From NCBI GenBank assembly GCA_007695175.1, contig REEH01000068.1:1-38920 (forward strand): a stretch of DNA of 38,920 nucleotides. The letters run 5' to 3'. The position numbers and the translations under genes were made by a program. The notes beneath the pieces are model-generated. The model did no database searches and was not told the DNA's origin. It saw nothing but the letters and a program-made list of their open reading frames with translations. Every line of letters begins with the position of its first letter. Position 1 is the stretch's first letter. This document shows, in pieces, positions 1-18,347 of this stretch. This stretch comes from Spirochaetaceae bacterium (GTDB lineage Bacteria > Spirochaetota > Spirochaetia > DSM-27196 > Alkalispirochaetaceae).

Positions 1-495
1 AAACTCGTAACGCTCCCGGTTACGGGAGAACTCCAGTTCCGCATTCTGCCGCAGCGCCTCGGAACTGTTGAAGAAATCCACCTGCACGGAGTGATCGATC
101 ACAAGATCCACCGGAAGCTGCGGATTGATGCGCGATGCGTCACCCCCGAGGCGCGCCACGGCGCTTCGCATTGCCGCCAGGTCCACTACGCTGGGCACCC
201 CGGTAAAGTCCTGGAGAAGAACGCGAGCAGGCTTGAAGGGCAGTTCGTCCCGGGCCGGCGCGGCGGGGTTGTACCGGCCGATTGCCTCCACGTGATCCCG
301 GGTGACCTCAAAGCCATCCTCGTTCCGGAGGATGGACTCCAGCAGGACCCGTATTGAAAAGGGAAGATTCCGGACACCGGGGAAGCCCTTGTCGGCAAAT
401 GCCTCAAGACTGTAGTACTCCAACGGACCGCGGGCAGTCTGCATCGTCTGTTTTACACCAAAGCTATCATTCCGGGCGCTCTTGTTATTCACCAT
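1..495 (-). CDS. acnA: Aconitate hydratase A, N-terminal part (gene runs off the left edge)
   Basis: The first 165 codons read as the N-terminus of an AcnA/IRP-type aconitase, which interconverts citrate and isocitrate in the cytosol using a [4Fe-4S] cluster. The family-typical order is visible: an N-terminal stretch ending in YYSLEAF, then [15 protein letters not shown] (about residues 48-62), the [19 protein letters not shown] block (about 99-117) and [15 protein letters not shown] (about 133-147). The cluster cysteines lie beyond the window. The ATG at 495 is preceded by AAGGAG at good spacing and by a TATATT hexamer at 518-513. The gene is divergent from the E1-KAS III fusion across only 87 bases, so the two may share control. 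Confidence 0.95.
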
Positions 496-582: not shown

Positions 583-3500
583 ATGACGGATCGCACCTCG
601 CCCGCTGAAAAAACGCTGCGTGCCCTCTACACCCACATGGTGACGGCACGCCACATGGACCTGATCGAGCAGAGCTATACCTCCCGGGGTGAGGCATTTT
701 TCCACGTCTCCGGAGCCGGGCATGAGGGAACAGTGGCTCTCTACCCCTATCTTACTGAGAATGACTGGCTGCACTGCCATTACCGGGACAAAGCCCTGAT
801 GCTCGCCCGGGGCATAACCCCCATGATGTTCTTCCTGAGTCTCTTCAACAAGGATGCGTCCCACTCGAGAGGCCGGCAGATGAACGCCCACATGAGCGCG
901 CCCGCCCTCAAGGTTCTCAGTATCGTCGGTCCCGTAGGAAACAGTGCCCTCCAGGCCGTGGGGGTAGCGGAAGTTATCCGGGACCAGCCCGGTTCCCCTC
1001 TCGTTCTCTGCGCCCTCGGAGAGGGCATGACCCAGGAGGGAGAAGTCATAGAGGCGATCGGTCACGCCGTGCGTGTTGGCGCACCGGTTCTCTTTGTAAT
1101 CCAGGACAACGCCTTTGCCATCTCCACCCGCACGAGGGGGCAGACATTCTATTCCCGCCCCGAGGGTGAGGCGGAGAGCTTCTACGGGGTACCCATTACG
1201 AGAATAGACGGCCGCAACGCGGCGGCGGCGCTCGGTGCTTTCGGCCCGGTAGTCGAGAGCATCCGTCTGGAGCGGAAACCGCGCATCGTCGTCTTCTCCG
1301 TGGAAAGGCTGCACAATCATACCAACGCCGACGACCAGCGCCTGTACCGCACTTCCGAGGAAATAGCCGCAGCCGCCGCCTCGGGCGATCCCCTTCTGAC
1401 GCTCAAAAAGCAGCTCCTCGCCGCCGGTTTTTCCCCGGAGGAACTGGACCGGGAAGAGGAGGATATCATTGCCAGGCTCCGGGAGGAGGCCAGGCAGGCT
1501 CAGGCGATGCCGGAACCGGAACCCTTCCGGGACGCGAAGGCTCCGCTCCCGGAGCATCTCCTGAACCGCCAGGGGGAATACCGTGGCTCCGGCGAGACGG
1601 AACTGGTCATGCTGGAGGCGATCCGGGACGTTCTTGATTATCGTATGGGAAAAGACGATCGGGTTACGCTCTTTGGCGAGGACCTGGAGGACCCGAAGGG
1701 CGACGTCTTCGGAATAACCCGGGGCCTCACCCGGAAGTACGGAGCCCGGGTAAAGAACAGTCCCCTCAGTGAATCCCTCATTCTGGGAGTCTCCGTAGGC
1801 CGTGCACTCGCCGGGGGACGACCCGTGGCATTCCTGCAATTTGCCGATTTTCTGCCCATCGCGTATAACCAGATCTTCTCGGAACTGGGCAGCATGTACT
1901 GGCGTACCGACGGTGGGTGGAAGGTACCGGTTATCGTCATGGTCACCGCCGGCGGATACCGTCCCGGTCTTGGTCCCTTCCACGCATCAACCCTGGAGGC
2001 CCTGGTGGCACATACGCCGGGCGTGGACGTCTTCATGCCCTCTACGGCGGGGGACGCGGCGGGTCTGCTCAACGCGGCCTTTGAATCGGAACGGCCCACG
2101 GTATTCTTCTATCCCAAGAATCAGCTCAACGATCGATCCGCCGCAACAAGCCGGGACGTGGAGCGCCAGCTCGTGCCGGTGGGAAAAGCCAGGTACGCAC
2201 GCCGGGGCGAGGATATAACTATCGTCGCCTACGGGAATACGGTGCCCCTGGCGGAGAAAGCGGCGGCGGATCTGGAGAAAGCGGGCGCTACGGCGGAGGT
2301 GATAGACCTGCGGAGTATCGTCCCCTGGGACATTGAACTCGTACTGGAAAGCGTCGGCAGAACGGGTCGGCTCATCGTAGCACACGAGGACAACCACACC
2401 GCCGGATTTGGCGCCGAGGTTATCTCTACGGTAGCCGAACGCAGCCAAAAATCGATCGCGGCGCGACGCGTCACGCGGCCGGACACGTACGTACCTTGCA
2501 ACTTTGGTAACCAGCTGGAGATTCTGCCCTCCTACAAGCGTATTCTCGATACGGCGGTGGATCTGCTGGGCGGGACGATAGTGTGGAAACAGACCGATTC
2601 CGCCCTGACCGGACTCTTTGACGTGGAAGCGGTCGGATCAAGCCCTTCCGACGAGTCGGTGACGATGGTGGAATGGCGGGTTGCTCCCGGCGATACCGTT
2701 CAGGAGGGGGACCTCCTGGCGGAGGTGGAGGCGGACAAGGCGGCGGCGGAACTCACGTCCCCCGTAGCGGGCACCGTCAGGGAGCTGTTCATGCAGCAGG
2801 GCGATACGGTCCCGGTGGGAACCCCGATCGTGCGGATCGCCACCGCCACGGATGGGCCGGCTCACGTGAAGACGCAGACCCGGGAAATGCCGGGAGAACC
2901 GATTATTACGGACCTCGGCACAGGCCGGCGGGAGAGTACGGCCGAAGCGCCTGAAAGCACCCTTCCCGCGCCGGCCCCCGGATCCGGTACCGGAAAGCTG
3001 CCTGAACCGATGCCTGTAACGGCGCCGGTTTGTCTCATCGCCGGGGTTGCGGCACGGCGTGGTTCCCGGATCGTCGGTAACGGGGAGCTCGCTGCTCTCA
3101 GCCCGGACTGGGACGCCGAGGATATCCGCAAGCGTACGGGCATCGAGTCCCGTCCCTGGATAGGAGATGGTGAAAATGTCCTGTCCCTGGCCGTCGATGC
3201 CGCCCGGCAGGTACTCCGGGAAACGGAAATCGACGCAAAGTCCATCAACCAGATCATTTTCGCAACAGGCACTCCCTCCAGTACCACCCCCTCCATGGCA
3301 GCGCTCCTTCAGTATGAACTGGCCCGGGAGGCGGGAGCCTTTCAGTGTACGGCCTTTGACATCAACGCTGCGTGCTCAGGCTATATTTACGGCCTGCAGC
3401 TTGCCTGGGATTACCTGGTCAGCAGCCCCGCCCATCGCGTACTGCTCATTACCAGTGAGGTTCTGAGTACACGCCTGGACATGCACGATGCCGGAACGGC

Positions 3501-3993
3501 TCCGATTTTCGGTGATGCCGCGACCGCCACAATTCTTGCGGGCGCCCGCGCTCTTCCCTCGGGAGGAGCATCAGCGGAAGTTTACCGTCCCGTCACCTCG
3601 GCTCACGGAGAATCAGGGGCGACTCTCTGTGTACCCCAGGAGTCGGAGCTTCCCGTCACGATGGACGGACCAAAAGTTTACCAGGAAGCGGTGAAAGCCA
3701 TGATGAGCACCCTCTCCTCAAGCGCGGAAGCGGCGGGACTGCGCCCGGAGAGCCTCGATCTCTACATCCCGCACCAGGCGAATCAGCGAATCATCAATGC
3801 CATACGGCAACGCATGAAACTCCCGGAAGAGAAGATGTACAGCAACATCCGGGGCAACGGGAACACATCCTCCAGTACGATCCCTCTCTGCCTGGCGGAA
3901 CTTCTTCCGGCCAGAGAAAGCAACCGGATCTGGGGACTCACCGCGTTTGGAGGAGGTTTCACGTACGGGGCTGCTCTGCTGAGAACACGCTGA
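583..3993 (+). CDS. 2-oxoacid dehydrogenase E1 alpha-beta / lipoyl domain / beta-ketoacyl-ACP synthase III fusion
   Basis: A single 1136-residue reading frame. Residues 1 to about 325 are E1 alpha, with a thiamine-diphosphate motif running from G146-E-G148 to Asn176 (QDNAFAIS). Residues about 340-665 are E1 beta. Residues about 675-763 are a lipoyl domain with the modifiable lysine in ADKA (Lys719). After a Pro/Ala-rich linker, residues about 812-1136 are a full-length KAS III (FabH) with an intact triad: Cys931 (AACSG), His1064 (PHQAN) and Asn1094 (GNGNTSS). No E2 acyltransferase domain is present. Known chemistry: E1 decarboxylates a 2-oxoacid and reductively acylates lipoate; KAS III condenses an acyl starter with malonyl-ACP. 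Inferred role: making branched or short acyl starters and using them for fatty acid initiation. The substrate is not determined. The ATG has AGGAGG four bases upstream and an extended -10 at 557-565. I see no frameshift. Confidence 0.9.
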   Translation: MTDRTSPAEKTLRALYTHMVTARHMDLIEQSYTSRGEAFFHVSGAGHEGTVALYPYLTENDWLHCHYRDKALMLARGITPMMFFLSLFNKDASHSRGRQMNAHMSAPALKVLSIVGPVGNSALQAVGVAEVIRDQPGSPLVLCALGEGMTQEGEVIEAIGHAVRVGAPVLFVIQDNAFAISTRTRGQTFYSRPEGEAESFYGVPITRIDGRNAAAALGAFGPVVESIRLERKPRIVVFSVERLHNHTNADDQRLYRTSEEIAAAAASGDPLLTLKKQLLAAGFSPEELDREEEDIIARLREEARQAQAMPEPEPFRDAKAPLPEHLLNRQGEYRGSGETELVMLEAIRDVLDYRMGKDDRVTLFGEDLEDPKGDVFGITRGLTRKYGARVKNSPLSESLILGVSVGRALAGGRPVAFLQFADFLPIAYNQIFSELGSMYWRTDGGWKVPVIVMVTAGGYRPGLGPFHASTLEALVAHTPGVDVFMPSTAGDAAGLLNAAFESERPTVFFYPKNQLNDRSAATSRDVERQLVPVGKARYARRGEDITIVAYGNTVPLAEKAAADLEKAGATAEVIDLRSIVPWDIELVLESVGRTGRLIVAHEDNHTAGFGAEVISTVAERSQKSIAARRVTRPDTYVPCNFGNQLEILPSYKRILDTAVDLLGGTIVWKQTDSALTGLFDVEAVGSSPSDESVTMVEWRVAPGDTVQEGDLLAEVEADKAAAELTSPVAGTVRELFMQQGDTVPVGTPIVRIATATDGPAHVKTQTREMPGEPIITDLGTGRRESTAEAPESTLPAPAPGSGTGKLPEPMPVTAPVCLIAGVAARRGSRIVGNGELAALSPDWDAEDIRKRTGIESRPWIGDGENVLSLAVDAARQVLRETEIDAKSINQIIFATGTPSSTTPSMAALLQYELAREAGAFQCTAFDINAACSGYIYGLQLAWDYLVSSPAHRVLLITSEVLSTRLDMHDAGTAPIFGDAATATILAGARALPSGGASAEVYRPVTSAHGESGATLCVPQESELPVTMDGPKVYQEAVKAMMSTLSSSAEAAGLRPESLDLYIPHQANQRIINAIRQRMKLPEEKMYSNIRGNGNTSSSTIPLCLAELLPARESNRIWGLTAFGGGFTYGAALLRTR

Positions 3994-4057
3994 AGGGGCG
4001 TCCTGGCTGAAGGGGCGTCCCGGCTGAAGGGGCGCCCTGGCTGAAGGGACATCCTAC
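3990..4057 (+). repeat. Four tandem 17-bp repeats at the end of the fusion gene
   Basis: The unit CTGAAGGGGCGTCCTGG occurs at 3990-4006, 4007-4023, 4024-4040 and, more diverged, 4041-4057. The first unit contains the TGA stop of the fusion gene. A hairpin follows at 4057-4076 (CCGGTGCG, loop gag, CGCAACCGG with one bulged base) with no T-run on the plus strand. The function is unknown. It may be a slippage-derived minisatellite. Confidence 0.85.
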
Positions 4058-4088
4058 CGGTGCGGAGCGCAACCGGTGTCGGGGGGAC

Positions 4089-4128
4089 AAAAAAACCCCC
4101 GGGGCAAAGGAGGTGAAATCCCCGGGGG
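4089..4128 (-). terminator. Rho-independent terminator of the msrB operon
   Basis: On the minus strand, a perfect 9-bp stem (4128-4120 with 4104-4096, CCCCCGGGG type) encloses a 15-base loop. Seven T residues follow (A-run 4095-4089 on the plus strand). It lies 78 bases past the msrB stop. A third copy of the same C/G palindrome at 4174-4183 could compete for pairing. Confidence 0.85.
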
Positions 4129-4206
4129 AAAGATGCCATGCAGGTCCGTGTGTCATTATGGAAACAACACACCCCCCCGGGGGTTACAGCAAAGACATCA
4201 ACTCGA

Positions 4207-4809
4207 TCAATTGGCCGTGAGTAGCTCCGGCGGTTCACCCCCGGAAGGCACAAAAATCATAGCCTCCGAGTTGATGCAGTACCTCAGACCGGTAGGGGCC
4301 GGCCCGTCCGGGAACACATGGCCCAGGTGAGAACCGCTGAGGCTGTCCACCACCTCCAGCCGGACCATACCGAAACTCACGTCGATCCGATAACGCACCG
4401 CATCAGGTTCTATCGGATGGGTGTAGCTCGGCCAGCCCGTGCGGGAATCGTACTTGGAACTGGAATGAAAGAGGGGCTGCCCTGTCGCGGCGGAGTAATA
4501 GACTCCCTCCTCACTGTTATGGAGCAGTTCGCCGGTAAAGGCTCGCTCCGTGCCGTGGTTGCGAAGTATGTGGAACTGCGCATCGGTCAGACGTTCCCGC
4601 CACTCCGCCTCGCTGAGTTCGACCGGAAACTCCTCCGGCACGGGATGCTCCTGGTAAAGCTCCCGTTCCCGGGGGGAAAGGCGCTCCACAGCCCAGCTAT
4701 TCCGAACCGTCGATTCCCGCTCCGGCTCAACTTCTTCCTGGGTGCCTCCGCCCATCGCCGGGGCCAGCACCACCAGTACAAACAGGACAAAACCGGAAAG
4801 TCTTTTCAT
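4207..4809 (-). CDS. msrB: Exported peptide-methionine (R)-S-oxide reductase, single-cysteine type
   Basis: A 200-residue MsrB, which reduces methionine-R-sulfoxide in proteins. A hydrophobic N-terminal signal or anchor (about residues 4-20) is followed by a charged linker. The catalytic domain (about 60-195) carries KYDSRTGWPSY, HLGHVFPDGPAPTGLRYCINS and the catalytic Cys178. Cys178 is the only cysteine in the protein. Both zinc CxxC pairs seen in many MsrBs are replaced (SAATG, and SLSGS before HLGH). The usual resolving-cysteine position in the GWPS block is Thr. The signal suggests action outside the cytoplasm. The signal has no lipobox cysteine. The gene follows the histidine kinase by 13 bases with no obvious ribosome binding site, so it is probably co-transcribed, and it ends at the terminator at 4089-4128. 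Confidence 0.92.
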   Translation of the reverse strand: MKRLSGFVLFVLVVLAPAMGGGTQEEVEPERESTVRNSWAVERLSPRERELYQEHPVPEEFPVELSEAEWRERLTDAQFHILRNHGTERAFTGELLHNSEEGVYYSAATGQPLFHSSSKYDSRTGWPSYTHPIEPDAVRYRIDVSFGMVRLEVVDSLSGSHLGHVFPDGPAPTGLRYCINSEAMIFVPSGGEPPELLTAN

Positions 4810-13627: not shown

Positions 13628-15016
13628 TTACGCGTGAATCGCCCAACCTTCGGCTGTCCGGGCAGCTTCCATCACCGCCTCGGAAAGCGTGGGATGAGCG
13701 TGAATCATCGTAGCGATGTCCTCCGGCAGGAGCTCCGCCTTGCGCGCCAGCAACAACTCGTGAATCAGCTCCGTTGCGTCCGCACCGGCTACGTGTGCAC
13801 CCAGTATTTCCCGCGTCTCCCGGCGGTAAACGATCTTCACGAGGCCCTCGCTCCTCTCCACCGCCACGGACTTGCCGGCTCCCCGGTAAGGAAAGGTAGC
13901 CGTCTCAATATCGAGACCCTTTTCACGGGCTTTCTTCTCCGTCATTCCGAAACTTCCCACCTGGGGTTCGCAGTAAACCGCCGAGGGTATCAGCAGGGGA
14001 TCGATCTGCCGCTCCGGCTTGTGTCCCGCCATGTGCTCTACGGCGATTTCACCCTCCTTGCTCGCCACATGGGCCAGCAGCGGAGTTGCCGTCACGTCTC
14101 CGATCGCGTAAATACTCTGTACGCCCGTTCTGCAGTAGTCTCCCGTTACGACGAAGCCGCGATCAAGGGTGACACCTACCTGCGCCAGGCCGATGTCCTC
14201 CGTATTCGGTGCGCGACCGACAGCCACGAGAATCATATCCGCCGCCAGCGTTTCCTCATTGCCCCCGGACTCCACGGTCACCTTGACACCTTTGCCCTTC
14301 CGATCCAGCGCCGTAGCTTTGGTGCCGGCCATCAACCGTATTCCGTACCGTTTGAACGCTTTTTCCACCACCTCCACCGCTTCGTGGTCCTCCAGGGGCA
14401 AAATCTGCTCCAGCATTTCCACCACCGTCACGTCCACGCCGAATGCGCTCATCACGTAGGCAAACTCCATCCCTATCGCTCCCGCGCCGAGGATCAGCAG
14501 CTTCTGGGGCAGCTTCTTCAGGTCCAGTATATCCGTCGAAGAAAGCACTTTTTTGCCGTCAAACTCAAAGCCCGGGATTTCCCGCGGTCGCGATCCGGTA
14601 GCCAACAGGATATTTCTCCCCGTCACAACCTTCTTCCCGTCCACTTCTATCTCGTGCGGGCCGGTGAAGACGCCCCTGCCGGATATGTAGTCAATCCCGT
14701 TCTTCTTCAGCAGCGCCTGAACGCCCTTGGAGAGTTTTCCCGCGGCATCGCGCGATTTCCTGTGTACTTTCGCGTAATCGATCGTGCTCCCGTCCACGGT
14801 AGCGCCGATGGCTTCCAGTTCCCGGATGGATCGCACCAGTTCCGCCTGGTGAATCAGCGCCTTTGAAGGTATGCAGCCCCAGTTGAGGCACACACCGCCG
14901 GGCGCATCCTTCTCGATTATCCCTGCCTTCAATCCCAGCTGGGAAGCGCGGATGGCCGCCACGTATCCCCCGGGACCAGCCCCAAGGACGAGCACGTCAT
15001 AGTCATACTGTTCCAT
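13628..15016 (-). CDS. lpdA: Dihydrolipoamide dehydrogenase (E3)
   Basis: A 462-residue flavoprotein disulfide reductase that reoxidises dihydrolipoyl groups and makes NADH. FAD-binding GAGPGGY (12-18), redox disulfide GGVCLNWGCIPSK (Cys43, Cys48), NAD-binding GAGAIGMEFA (about 180-190), a second FAD contact YAIGDVT, and the C-terminal His-Glu pair in HAHPTLSE (His441, Glu446) are all present. Last of the four pyruvate dehydrogenase genes, 24 bases after pdhC. It has no lipoyl domain of its own. It could also serve the E1-lipoyl-KAS III fusion, whose cycle needs an E3 only if acyl transfer leaves dihydrolipoate. Confidence 0.97.
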   Translation of the reverse strand: MEQYDYDVLVLGAGPGGYVAAIRASQLGLKAGIIEKDAPGGVCLNWGCIPSKALIHQAELVRSIRELEAIGATVDGSTIDYAKVHRKSRDAAGKLSKGVQALLKKNGIDYISGRGVFTGPHEIEVDGKKVVTGRNILLATGSRPREIPGFEFDGKKVLSSTDILDLKKLPQKLLILGAGAIGMEFAYVMSAFGVDVTVVEMLEQILPLEDHEAVEVVEKAFKRYGIRLMAGTKATALDRKGKGVKVTVESGGNEETLAADMILVAVGRAPNTEDIGLAQVGVTLDRGFVVTGDYCRTGVQSIYAIGDVTATPLLAHVASKEGEIAVEHMAGHKPERQIDPLLIPSAVYCEPQVGSFGMTEKKAREKGLDIETATFPYRGAGKSVAVERSEGLVKIVYRRETREILGAHVAGADATELIHELLLARKAELLPEDIATMIHAHPTLSEAVMEAARTAEGWAIHA

Positions 15017-15040
15017 TCTCTTCTCCTTGCCGGACCTCGC

Positions 15041-16351
15041 CTAAAAGAGCAGCCTCGCCGGCTCTTCCATGAGCAGTTGCAGTTCCCGCAGGAACCGTCC
15101 GCCCGCGGCGCCATCAATAACGCGATGATCGCACGAAAGAGTCATCTTCATCACAGTCGCCGCACCGATGGAACCGTCCCCGCGGACGACCGGCGTGGGC
15201 TTGCCGGCGCCGAGAGCGAGAATAGCCGATCCCGGCGGGTTGATGATCGCCGTAAACTCCTCCACCCCGAAAGACCCCAGGTTGCTGATCGTAAAGGTAG
15301 CGTCGCTGTACTCCTCGGGCTTGAGTTTACCGGTCCGTGCTTTCTCGATCAGATCCACCAGGTCCGTCTCGATATCCCGGACGCCCCGGTTGCCGCAGTT
15401 CCGCACGACCGGTGTTATCAGGCCGTTTCCCGCGTCAACCGCAAGGCCGATATCGATACTGCCATGCTGCAGGATCGTCTCACCTCTCCAGGTAGCGTTG
15501 ATACCGGGATGCCGCTTGATCGCCTCAGCGACAAACCGTATGAAGAATGCATTGAGAGAGACCTTCCCGGAGGCGCTCTCGTTCAGCAGTTTTCGTGCTT
15601 CCACGACCTTTTCCATCACCACGGAGGTGGTGAGGTAGTAATGCGGAGCAGTGTACATACTCTCGCTGAGACGCTTTGCGATCACGGCCCGTTTTCCCGT
15701 GACGGGGATCTCCTGGTCCGCCGGGACGGCAGAGCCGCCGGCACCACCGGTCACGGTGCCGCCCACCGCTCCCGCACCTCCCGGGACTCCACGAAACTCC
15801 TCAATATCCCGCTGGATAATCCGTCCGCCGGTACCGGTACCCTTCACGAGCGATAGATTGATATTGCGCTCCGCCGCGAGCTTCACCGCCAGCGGACTGG
15901 CCTTGATTCGCGATCCTCCCGGGGAGTCCTCTTTCGGGGGAAGGGGGGCGGCTTTCGTCTCCTCGTTCTTCGTTTCCCCGGATTCAGAGGATTCCCGGGG
16001 CGCCGGGGAAGCGGGTGCTTCCGGGGCGGAAGGGGCTGGTTCTTCCTTGACGGGACCGGCGGAGGCGGATCCTTCCGCTTCCACTTCCGAGAGAATGCCC
16101 GAGAGGTCCTCGTCCTTCTCGCCGATGATCGCGATAGTCTGGCCCACCGAGGCGCTTCCATCAACACCGACGATTATCCTGAGGAGCGTTCCCTCCTGGG
16201 AGGACTCGTACTCGACGCTTGTCTTGTCCGTTTCAACCTCACACAGGACGTCGCCGGCGGCGACCGTATCCCCCTCTTTCTTGTTCCAGCTTATGATTGT
16301 ACCCTCCTCCATCGTGGGAGAGAGGGCCGTCATCGGCACTTTTTCCGCCAT
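15041..16351 (-). CDS. pdhC: Pyruvate dehydrogenase E2, dihydrolipoamide acetyltransferase
   Basis: 436 residues. A single N-terminal lipoyl domain carries Lys43 (ETDKTSVEYES). A Pro/Ala/Glu-rich linker follows (about 85-145), then the E3/E1-binding domain (about 150-185, KASPLAVKLAAERN ... GTGTGGRIIQRDIE), a second Gly/Val-rich linker and the acetyltransferase core (about 210-436) with the active-site HRVIDG (His409, Asp413). It transfers acetyl from lipoate to CoA. The ATG at 16351 has AAGGAG nine bases upstream, inside the end of pdhB. It begins 6 bases after the pdhB stop. Confidence 0.97.
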   Translation of the reverse strand: MAEKVPMTALSPTMEEGTIISWNKKEGDTVAAGDVLCEVETDKTSVEYESSQEGTLLRIIVGVDGSASVGQTIAIIGEKDEDLSGILSEVEAEGSASAGPVKEEPAPSAPEAPASPAPRESSESGETKNEETKAAPLPPKEDSPGGSRIKASPLAVKLAAERNINLSLVKGTGTGGRIIQRDIEEFRGVPGGAGAVGGTVTGGAGGSAVPADQEIPVTGKRAVIAKRLSESMYTAPHYYLTTSVVMEKVVEARKLLNESASGKVSLNAFFIRFVAEAIKRHPGINATWRGETILQHGSIDIGLAVDAGNGLITPVVRNCGNRGVRDIETDLVDLIEKARTGKLKPEEYSDATFTISNLGSFGVEEFTAIINPPGSAILALGAGKPTPVVRGDGSIGAATVMKMTLSCDHRVIDGAAGGRFLRELQLLMEEPARLLF

Positions 16352-16357
16352 GATCAA

Positions 16358-17338
16358 CTACTCCTTGTAGGTTACGCGCTTGACCGCGTCAACGATCTTT
16401 TCCACCGTCGGCTGTACCGCCAGTTCCAGCGTGTGGTTGTAGGGCATGGGCACATCCTCGCTCGAGACCAGTTCCACCGGTGCGTCCAGGTCGTCAAAGC
16501 AGTTCCGTGACACCAGCCAGGCCACGTGGGACCCCACGCTGGCCATGGGCCAGGACTCATCAACGATCACGGCGCGGTTGGTCTTTCGTACACTTGCGTA
16601 GATCGTCTCCTCATCCAGGGGCCTGAGGCTCCTCAGATCGACGACTTCCGCTTCGATTCCCATTTCCGCAAGCCTCTCCGCGGCACGGAGCACCATGTGC
16701 ACCGGTTTGGAATAGGATATAAGGGTGACGTCCTTTCCCTTACGCTTGATGTCGGCCTTCCCGAAGGGTATCAGGTATTCCTCTTCCGGAACCTCTCCGG
16801 TAAGACCGTAGGTCATTTCGCTCTCCATCATGACCACCGGGTTGTCGTCCCGAATCGCCGTCTTCAGCAGGCCCTTGGCATCGTAGGGCGTGGAGGGCGC
16901 AATCACCTTGAGGCCCGGCACGTGGACAAAATAGCTCTGCAGCGCCTGACTGTGTTGCGATGAAAGGTACTCGGCGGGGCCATTTGCTCCCCGAAAAACG
17001 ATAGGCACCTTCATCTGGCCGCCGGACATGTGACGCATCTTGGCGGCGTTGTTCACCACCTGGTCCAGCGCCAGCAGGGCGAAGTTGAAGGTCATCCACT
17101 CCACGATCGGTCGCAAACCAACCGTCGCGGCCCCGACGGCCAGCCCGGTAAACCCGAGCTCCGCGATTGGTGTATCCTTGACTCTCCGTTCTCCGTACTT
17201 GTCCAGCAGCCCCTTGCTCACTTTGTAGGCGCCGTTGTACTGCCCTACCTCCTCGCCAAGCAGGAAAACGTTCTCGTCCCGCTCCATTTCCTCATCCATG
17301 GCCTGCCGGATCGCTTCCCGCATCTGTATCTCAGGCAT
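16358..17338 (-). CDS. pdhB: Pyruvate dehydrogenase E1 beta subunit
   Basis: 326 residues, the usual size for this subunit. The E1 beta blocks FLLGEEVGQYNGAYKVSKGL, DTPIAELGFTGLAVGAA and MTFNFALLALDQVVNNAAK are visible, and the transketolase C-terminal domain begins at about 200 (VTLISYSKPVHMVLRAAERL). Together with PdhA it decarboxylates pyruvate using thiamine diphosphate. The ATG has GGAGG upstream. It lies 34 bases after pdhA. Confidence 0.96.
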   Translation of the reverse strand: MPEIQMREAIRQAMDEEMERDENVFLLGEEVGQYNGAYKVSKGLLDKYGERRVKDTPIAELGFTGLAVGAATVGLRPIVEWMTFNFALLALDQVVNNAAKMRHMSGGQMKVPIVFRGANGPAEYLSSQHSQALQSYFVHVPGLKVIAPSTPYDAKGLLKTAIRDDNPVVMMESEMTYGLTGEVPEEEYLIPFGKADIKRKGKDVTLISYSKPVHMVLRAAERLAEMGIEAEVVDLRSLRPLDEETIYASVRKTNRAVIVDESWPMASVGSHVAWLVSRNCFDDLDAPVELVSSEDVPMPYNHTLELAVQPTVEKIVDAVKRVTYKE

Positions 17339-17372
17339 TATTCACGTTCCTCCCTCTCTCCATGCCCGGTAA

Positions 17373-18347
17373 TCAGGCCAGGATATCCTCGTACATCGTG
17401 TGCAGCGCCGGTTCCTCGCTCTTCTCCGCGAAGTCAACCGCCGCCTGCACCTCTTCCTTCACCTCGTCGTCGAGCTTCCTGTACTGCTCCTCCGAGAGCA
17501 CGCCCGCATCGATCATCCTGCTTTTAAGCTGAACGATGGGATCCTGCTGTTTGTATGATTCCAGCTCATCCTTGGTGCGATACTTGGCGGGGTCACTGGC
17601 GGAGTGTCCCTTGTACCGGTACGTCTTGAGATCGATAACCCAGGCATTTCCATTCTGCCGTGCGTCCTGCGCGACCTCCCGGAGTCCCTCGTAAACATCG
17701 AGAAAATCCATACCGTTGATGATCTTCCCCTGAAGGCCGTAACCCTCGGCCTTGACGTGAAAATCCTCGATGCCGGAAACGCGATTCACCGCTGTTCCCA
17801 TCCCGAACTGGTTGTTTTCCACGATGTAGACCGCCGGGAGCTTCCAGATCTTCGCCAGGTTGAGGCTCTCGTGGAACGCACCCTGGTGGATCGCCCCGTC
17901 CCCGAAAAAGCAGAGCGTAACCCCGCCGTCCTTGAGGTAGGCCTGCTTGAAGGCCACACCGGTCGCCATGGGTATCTGGGCGCCCACTATACCGTTCCCC
18001 CCCAGAAAATGGCGCTCCACGTCGAACATATGCATCGAGCCGCCCTTGCCGCGGGCACAGCCGGTGATCTTGCCGAACATCTCCGCCATTATCGATCCGG
18101 GGGACATGCCTACCGCCAGGGCGTGGCCGTGGTCACGGTAGGAGGTCAGAATGTAGTCGGTTTTAAGATCTATCGCCGCCACGGCACCGACGGCTACGGC
18201 TTCCTGGCCATTGTAGAGATGAAGAAATCCGCCGATTTTCCGCAGGCCGTACATCTGAGCCGTTTTTTCCTCAAAACGCCGGATCAGCACCATATCGCGC
18301 AGCGCCTTCATCAGAAATTCTGAATCGTATTTTTTTATATCGCTCAT
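17373..18347 (-). CDS. pdhA: Pyruvate dehydrogenase E1 alpha subunit
   Basis: A 324-residue thiamine-diphosphate enzyme subunit. The cofactor motif runs from G149-D-G151 (FFGDGAIHQGAFHE) to Asn178-Asn179 (IVENNQFGMGT). YRDHGHALAVG and RGKGGSMHMF are the substrate and phosphorylation-loop blocks typical of pyruvate-type E1 alpha. This separate E1 alpha is closer to ordinary PDH than the E1 alpha half of the fusion at 583-3993, so the two enzymes probably use different oxoacids. The start ATG overlaps the stop of the upstream gene (ATGA), indicating translational coupling. Confidence 0.96.
   Translation of the reverse strand: MSDIKKYDSEFLMKALRDMVLIRRFEEKTAQMYGLRKIGGFLHLYNGQEAVAVGAVAAIDLKTDYILTSYRDHGHALAVGMSPGSIMAEMFGKITGCARGKGGSMHMFDVERHFLGGNGIVGAQIPMATGVAFKQAYLKDGGVTLCFFGDGAIHQGAFHESLNLAKIWKLPAVYIVENNQFGMGTAVNRVSGIEDFHVKAEGYGLQGKIINGMDFLDVYEGLREVAQDARQNGNAWVIDLKTYRYKGHSASDPAKYRTKDELESYKQQDPIVQLKSRMIDAGVLSEEQYRKLDDEVKEEVQAAVDFAEKSEEPALHTMYEDILA

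Follow-up and report, generated by a model that had tools for sequence, protein, structure and literature searches.

In the textbook view, FabH starts fatty acids from acyl-coenzyme A (CoA), and lipoate passes acyl groups to CoA via the E2 acyltransferase. A 38,920-nucleotide stretch of DNA from a Spirochaetaceae bacterium (contig REEH01000068.1 of assembly GCA_007695175.1; hereafter, the window) carries a gene that raises the question of where an acyl group would go from lipoate when no E2 is at hand. At positions 583-3993 of the forward strand, a single polypeptide is encoded in which the alpha and beta parts of a 2-oxoacid dehydrogenase E1, a lipoyl domain, and a 3-oxoacyl-acyl carrier protein (ACP) synthase III (KAS III) follow one another. 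The fusion is probably a self-contained starter-unit synthase that would convert a branched 2-oxo acid to a 3-oxoacyl-ACP through direct transfer from lipoate to Cys931 of the KAS III domain, with neither acyl-CoA nor E2 taking part. An earlier note, made from the letters of the window alone, had proposed a one-protein starter-unit factory leading from oxoacid to 3-oxoacyl-ACP, and this idea is supported, at the level of sequence, by residue conservation, the loss of the residues that contact the CoA adenine, the E1 signature, a sister family of E1-lipoyl-E2 chains, a lipoyl-KAS III protein in a genome without the fusion (G015), and the iso-fatty acids recorded for carrier lineages.

Architecture of the fusion protein

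The frame is uninterrupted from the ATG at 583 to the stop codon at 3993 and encodes 1136 amino acids, with homologues of equal length; in 200 base-shuffles of the gene, the longest open run was 310 codons. A Shine-Dalgarno sequence, AGGAGGT, is read directly at 573-579, 3 bases ahead of the ATG and, like all parts of the gene given below, on the forward strand. A Pfam search returned six matches, all far exceeding their cut-offs, in the order E1 alpha, E1 beta, lipoyl, KAS III. The E1 alpha part, which binds thiamine diphosphate (ThDP), spans 631-1524 (E1_dh, PF00676, residues 17-314, 2.6e-35) and contains a GEG..N ThDP motif, GRQM at residues 97-100, and NADD at residues 248-251. The E1 beta part (1609-2517) consists of Transket_pyr (residues 343-516) and Transketolase_C (534-645), includes the catalytic His467, and has 1um9_B as its best match in the PDB (219 bits). 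The lipoyl domain, at about residues 678-753 (2614-2841; Biotin_lipoyl, PF00364, residues 692-752, 2.9e-19), adopts its beta-domain fold in the AlphaFold2 model and carries the lipoyl lysine, Lys719, at 2737-2739, in keeping with the barrel-sandwich fold and DKA beta-turn lysine of lipoyl domains. Finally, the KAS III domain (residues 816-1134; 3028-3984) matches ACP_syn_III (925-987) and ACP_syn_III_C (1049-1134), and its triad is encoded at 3373-3375 (Cys931), 3772-3774 (His1064), and 3862-3864 (Asn1094). The same search found neither a 2-oxoacid_dh E2 catalytic domain (PF00198) nor an E3_binding, or peripheral-subunit-binding, domain (PF02817) on the chain. The uninterrupted frame, the four residues, and the missing E2 described in the earlier note were thus all borne out.

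With the family alignment, AlphaFold2 modeled the whole chain at a mean predicted local distance difference test score (pLDDT) of 88. The fused KAS III superimposes on E. coli FabH (9ka6) over 309 residues at 1.8 A (VIA-align Z 41.8), and a search with the model of the complete chain retrieved FabH structures along with those of E1 beta, among them the branched-chain E1 beta of Thermus; no solved structure listed by Foldseek or VIA-align combines E1, lipoyl, and KAS III. The protein scores 232 bits against the NCBIfam FabH model TIGR00747, below the cut-off of 292.1, and 262 bits against the broader KAS III model PRK09352, above its cut-off of 249.

To compare residues, 62 fused proteins from two phyla were aligned; they share one origin, and their residues are therefore not independent observations. 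Lys719, Cys931, His1064, and Asn1094 are invariant in this set, as are Asn176, the catalytic histidines His246 (alpha part) and His467 (beta part), Asp250, Asp251, and the G-D/E-G ThDP motif of the E1 half. The linker ahead of the lipoyl domain measures 40 residues in every protein. The linker ahead of KAS III (residues 754-815; 2842-3027) ranges from 36 to 75 residues and is variable (18% mean identity) and mostly disordered, with pLDDT below 50 at residues 781-813; it nevertheless holds one conserved stretch, ..PG.PII, in which Pro773 is invariant in a 45-row alignment, and a strand is modeled at residues 772-776.

Proposed mechanism

In the proposed cycle, the E1 half would decarboxylate the 2-oxo acid on ThDP and then reductively acylate the lipoyl group on Lys719, whose lipoylation is predicted. 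The swinging arm would hand the acyl group straight to Cys931, and the KAS III domain would join it with malonyl-ACP to yield a branched 3-oxoacyl-ACP, the earliest intermediate on the way to iso- and anteiso-fatty acids. A separate dihydrolipoamide dehydrogenase (E3) would reoxidize the arm in trans, a service that the E3 of the pyruvate dehydrogenase (PDH) encoded in the window could provide. The net reaction would be 2-oxoacid + malonyl-ACP + NAD+ -> 3-oxoacyl-ACP + 2 CO2 + NADH. We infer the substrate, the order of steps, the independence from CoA, ACP as the acceptor, and reoxidation in trans. The lipoyl synthase LipA is encoded in all 12 genomes tested, and E3 genes are likewise present in the genomes tested.

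A literature search, weak in that it covered few subscription papers, found no description of a protein that links KAS III with E1 and lipoyl domains. The architecture is built from known parts, and it seems rather more probable than otherwise that what is new is the chemistry, in which a lipoyl arm serves a condensing enzyme without CoA. If true, lipoate would feed a condensing enzyme directly and priming would be independent of the acyl-CoA pool; the fusion would be a source, so far unrecognized, of branched-chain lipids in many spirochaetes and in Kiritimatiellales, and a compact part for producing branched fatty acids. A single open reading frame and the availability of complete carrier genomes make the idea directly testable.

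Origin and related architectures

How did a condensing enzyme come to stand behind a lipoyl domain? The E1 tree groups the fused proteins in a single clade (support 100), with L042, a single chain of E1 alpha, E1 beta, lipoyl, and E2, as its sister; this relation has Shimodaira-Hasegawa-like approximate likelihood ratio support of 97-100. Next come more E1-lipoyl-E2 chains of Verrucomicrobiota together with a Streptomyces E1 that adjoins a nonribosomal peptide synthetase (NRPS) gene. Given this sister chain, KAS III appears to stand where E2 stood, and the simplest reading of the sequences is that KAS III took the place of E2 at the C-terminus by a domain swap. Chains of the E1-lipoyl-E2 kind (L042 and L145-L154) have about 1000-1100 amino acids and occur in Verrucomicrobiota and one Spirochaetota genome. 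In the four whose domains were scanned (L042, L145, L148, and L152), the E1-lipoyl order is that of the fusion, at 33-39% identity, and an E3-binding domain is absent; the chains end in the 2-oxoacid_dh (E2) catalytic domain, whereas the fusion ends in KAS III. Another known single chain, OdhA, combines a 2-oxoglutarate E1 with an E2 core and lacks KAS III. As the Corynebacterium protein (PDB 8p5v), it likewise joins components of a dehydrogenase complex in one chain.

The genome G015, which represents a neighboring lineage and is without the fusion, presents a different arrangement, in which two directly adjoining, operon-like genes on the reverse strand of locus L063 (G015:C69:4000-10000) encode a 541-amino-acid lipoyl-E3-binding-KAS III protein (1044-2666) and a 662-amino-acid E1 alpha-beta protein (2684-4669). 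The first of these resembles an E2 in which KAS III has taken the place of the acyltransferase domain. Its KAS III keeps the equivalent of FabH Arg151 and has Tyr at position 32, and no further copy of this lipoyl-E3-binding-KAS III type was found in the 393 genomes sampled. Descent of the pair from the fusion by splitting was rejected for E1 (approximately unbiased test, p 7.5e-6, with a long branch in play), and the KAS tree places the G015 domain differently depending on the root. It seems, then, that in this pair KAS III was linked to a lipoyl domain a second time, independently. On balance, we favor the view that a CoA-independent, lipoamide-dependent ketoacyl synthase arose when KAS III replaced E2 once, is now found in two phyla, and has a counterpart in a lipoyl-KAS III that arose again elsewhere.

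The Streptomyces E1 alpha-beta gene mentioned above lies at 5929-7941 of L172, from a Streptomyces xanthii plasmid, and groups with the E1-lipoyl-E2 chains; it may supply an acyl unit to the neighboring NRPS.

Proposed transfer of the acyl group to the condensing domain

The decisive question is whether the acyl group passes through CoA. In E. coli FabH, the adenine of CoA sits between Trp32 and Arg151. The M. tuberculosis equivalents of these residues, W42 and R161, are those mutated in PDB entry 2aj9. Neither residue has an equivalent in any of the 62 fused proteins, and both are present in all 26 stand-alone KAS III proteins from related spirochaete genomes that served as the comparison set; in the window protein, their positions are taken by Asp847 (3121-3123) and Ala970 (3490-3492). 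Since the fused KAS domains have one origin (support 100/100), the two contacts were lost once and the change has persisted, so that the 62 proteins do not count as 62 events. Arg249, the ACP contact of FabH, is retained in all 62. As the adenine contacts are lost in the fused KAS domains only, the sequences favor direct acylation of the KAS III cysteine by the lipoyl arm over passage via CoA at the KAS site. The earlier note had left a choice between hand-over to the cysteine and hand-over to CoA held there; the first has thereby gained ground and the second has become less favored.

The route to which this proposal is most naturally compared is that of branched-chain 2-oxoacid dehydrogenase (BKD) plus FabH, with which the fusion shares the overall conversion, the branched-chain E1 signature, and the KAS III fold and triad. 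There, however, E1 alpha/beta, E2, E3, and FabH are separate and acyl-CoA is a free intermediate, whereas the fusion is one chain with no E2 and with the adenine contacts lost.

A conservative alternative would retain CoA, with a separate E2 (that of PDH) or the KAS site itself loading it and the KAS III domain using acyl-CoA as FabH does, such that the fusion would only raise the local concentration. All parts of such a channel are individually ordinary, at least one E2 is encoded in most carrier genomes, and the fused KAS domains keep N247, G209, and mostly T37/R36 of the CoA/pantetheine site, while Trp843 might stack on the adenine. Set against this are the loss of W32 and R151 described above and the fact that the chain has no E2 though its sister proteins have one. 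Moreover, the sole E2 of several genomes belongs to PDH: it adjoins a two-subunit PDH in G012, G136, and G323 and an AceE-type PDH in G811 and G462, so that the fusion is the only candidate found there for a lipoate-dependent branched-chain dehydrogenase. In one metagenome-assembled genome (MAG) of 1.9 Mb, G426, no E2 was found; total lack of E2 was seen in this MAG only and is not used as a general argument. Together, these observations make a CoA-dependent channel unlikely.

Condensation or simple transfer

A second alternative is that the KAS III domain is an acyltransferase that moves the acyl group from lipoate to ACP and yields acyl-ACP instead of 3-oxoacyl-ACP. Transfer-only relatives of KAS III are known, for example ChlB3, in which the KAS III fold transfers acyl groups outside the standard FabH reaction (PMC9573744); unlike the fusion, these enzymes stand alone, without E1 or lipoyl domains. 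NapB/NapD and QncN/QncL are described as two-component enzymes of the transketolase/E1 type that load ACP by means of lipoyl and acyltransferase domains (PMC6335953, PMC7570522), QncN/QncL bringing a C2 unit to ACP via the lipoyl domain (PMC6335953). There, the lipoyl-borne unit enters a carrier-protein pathway rather than CoA metabolism, as proposed here, and by analogy these systems are the nearest precedent for a bypass of CoA. Systems of the QncN/QncL type lie next to an ACP in a natural-product cluster; their donor is a ketose phosphate, the unit is C2, and transfer is ascribed to an E2-type acyltransferase domain, whereas the fusion has a KAS III with a full condensing triad in place of the acyltransferase, and aconitase, MsrB, and phosphotransferase system (PTS) enzyme I genes as neighbors. 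The single-chain Streptomyces E1 beside an NRPS gene, which falls in the same larger E1 clade as the fusion, also fits a loading role. Against simple transfer, however, the Cys-His-Asn triad is wholly invariant and GNTSS nearly so, and comparison of gene neighborhoods found no ACP, NRPS, or polyketide synthase gene recurring beside the fusion. Retention over whole orders is, in turn, as expected for primary metabolism. A domain that transfers without condensing is accordingly quite improbable.

Substrate of the E1 half

In PDB searches, the E1 alpha part matched human branched-chain E1 alpha and that of the Thermus 2-oxo acid enzyme best, ahead of PDH E1. With GRQ(M/L) plus S/A-DD taken as the branched-chain signature and GKGGSMH plus SDP as that of PDH, the fused proteins show GR(Q/R)M and ADD motifs (R98, D250, and D251 in all 62; M100 in 60), a signature shared by two annotated BKD E1s and not by PDHs. 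The remaining E1s that were examined in carrier genomes are all of the PDH, acetoin, or 2-oxoglutarate dehydrogenase (OGDH) type, and the other E1 genes of the window genome, on contigs C44, C167, C234, C253, and C256, have features of these same types. The window itself encodes an ordinary PDH on the reverse strand (13628-18347), with E1 alpha at 17373-18347, E1 beta at 16358-17338, E2 at 15041-16357, and E3 at 13628-15016; its E1 alpha scores 439.6 bits against a PDH cut-off of 393.85. The nearby PDH reported in the earlier note is therefore real, and the inventory of E1 genes backs its suggestion that the fusion would have a distinct substrate. At position 87, which gates the acyl pocket, every fused protein has Thr or Ser (Thr902 in the window, 3286-3288, at the position of FabH Phe87), as compared with Phe in 14, Leu in 9, and Met, Tyr, and Ser in one each of the 26 stand-alone proteins. 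Work on FabH ties a small residue at this position to larger starters. The E1 half most likely acts on the 2-oxo acid of a branched-chain amino acid (valine, leucine, or isoleucine).

Single-chain E1s of another family were observed as well (L187, L171, L188, and L189; 820-900 amino acids, with an insertion), of which L171 lies beside an E2 gene. On account of their PDH/acetoin-type motifs, they were rejected as candidates for the branched-chain enzyme.

Lipid records offer an independent view of the starter. An isobutyryl starter would be expected to give an even iso series (i-C12, i-C14, i-C16, and i-C18). In the order of the Pontiellaceae MAG G426, two fusion carriers, G816 (8.7 Mb) and G833 (7.4 Mb), are presumed to be Pontiella desulfatans and P. 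sulfatireligans; i-C12:0, i-C14:0, and i-C18:0 are among the major fatty acids of both species, as is i-C16:0 in the second (PMC7356697). The Pontiella record, to the extent that the presumed species match holds, fits a branched starter. Likewise, Spirochaeta africana is, by implication, among the species with iso-C15:0 (PMC4511686), and the genome presumed to be this species, G012, has an intact fusion.

Could the same machine use pyruvate, giving an acetyl starter, or a straight-chain or aromatic 2-oxo acid? Sequence cannot give the substrate with certainty, and E1 position 103 varies among the fused proteins (His in 35, Phe in 24, Met in 3), such that specificity may differ among lineages. 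Nonetheless, a branched-chain-type signature beside a separately encoded PDH, the Thr/Ser gate of the KAS pocket, and the iso-fatty acids of Pontiella make another substrate very improbable.

Distribution

A survey of the architecture across genomes, proposed as a check in the earlier note, found the fusion in two phyla. A scan of GTDB genomes recovered relatives in Spirochaetales (61%), Pontiellaceae (48%), and another Verrucomicrobiota MAG (45%). Of 40 genomes related to that of the window, 34 have a copy that is full, contig-cut, or, in G008, broken, and other families of the class also carry the fusion. In the Spirochaetota sample, 16 of 393 genomes match at E 1e-100, single-contig genomes among them; one of the 16 (L042) is of the E1-lipoyl-E2 type. 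At the same threshold, the phylum to which the Pontiellaceae MAG belongs gave matches in 64 of 388 genomes, about 37 of them with the fused type; the remaining matches are weaker, with frames of about 1000-1600 amino acids, and the three scanned all end in an E2 domain. The order of this MAG (G426) has the fusion in 38 of 43 genomes, a few of them contig-cut. In a plasmid collection, 838 records matched in part, and none of them contained a full fusion.

An assembly chimera, misjoin, or frameshift at the window gene, which nothing beyond the odd architecture would suggest (the earlier note had named a sequencing join or frameshift as a refutation), is ruled out for practical purposes by the same full-length fusion in dozens of independent genomes of two phyla, some of them single-contig and including most genomes of an order, and by the fused E1 and fused KAS domains each forming one clade.

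Observations weighing against the proposal

Several observations count against the proposed synthase. Trp843, one helical turn ahead of the lost Trp32, is present in 55 of the 62 fused proteins and might partly substitute for it. Conservation of the basic ACP patch is incomplete: most spirochaete copies have other residues at K214 and K256. With the E3-binding domain absent from the chain, reoxidation must do without that docking site. The E1 signature alone does not establish the substrate; no fatty-acid synthesis gene was seen among the recurrent neighbors checked beside the fusion; and two same-genus genomes among the 40 relatives are without the gene. The sharpest conflict is that of Salinispira pacifica, which is reported to have 11.7% iso-C15:0 and whose genome was sequenced with three technologies (PMC4511686). 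The genome presumed to be this species, G008 (a single contig of 3782798 bases), has the fusion gene in three frames and a second, strongly degraded copy (L139 and L140), so that iso-C15:0 would be made despite frameshifted copies only; it also has two E2 genes, one with PDH and the other with an OGDH-like enzyme. Three explanations offer themselves: residual function of these copies, sequence errors at the loci, or a different route to the starter.

Genomic neighborhood

The recurrent neighbors of the fusion are a divergent aconitase, MsrB, and NeuB/SerS-type genes or PTS enzyme I. In the window, a divergent AcnA-type aconitase lies upstream (1-495, reverse strand), a neighbor found at seven spirochaete fusion loci, and MsrB lies downstream (4207-4809, reverse strand). 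Directly 3' of the fusion stop, at 3990-4190, tandem units of about 17 bases resembling GAAGGGGCGTCCTGGCT are followed by C/G-rich CCCCCGGGG repeats, and this stretch is possibly a terminator region.

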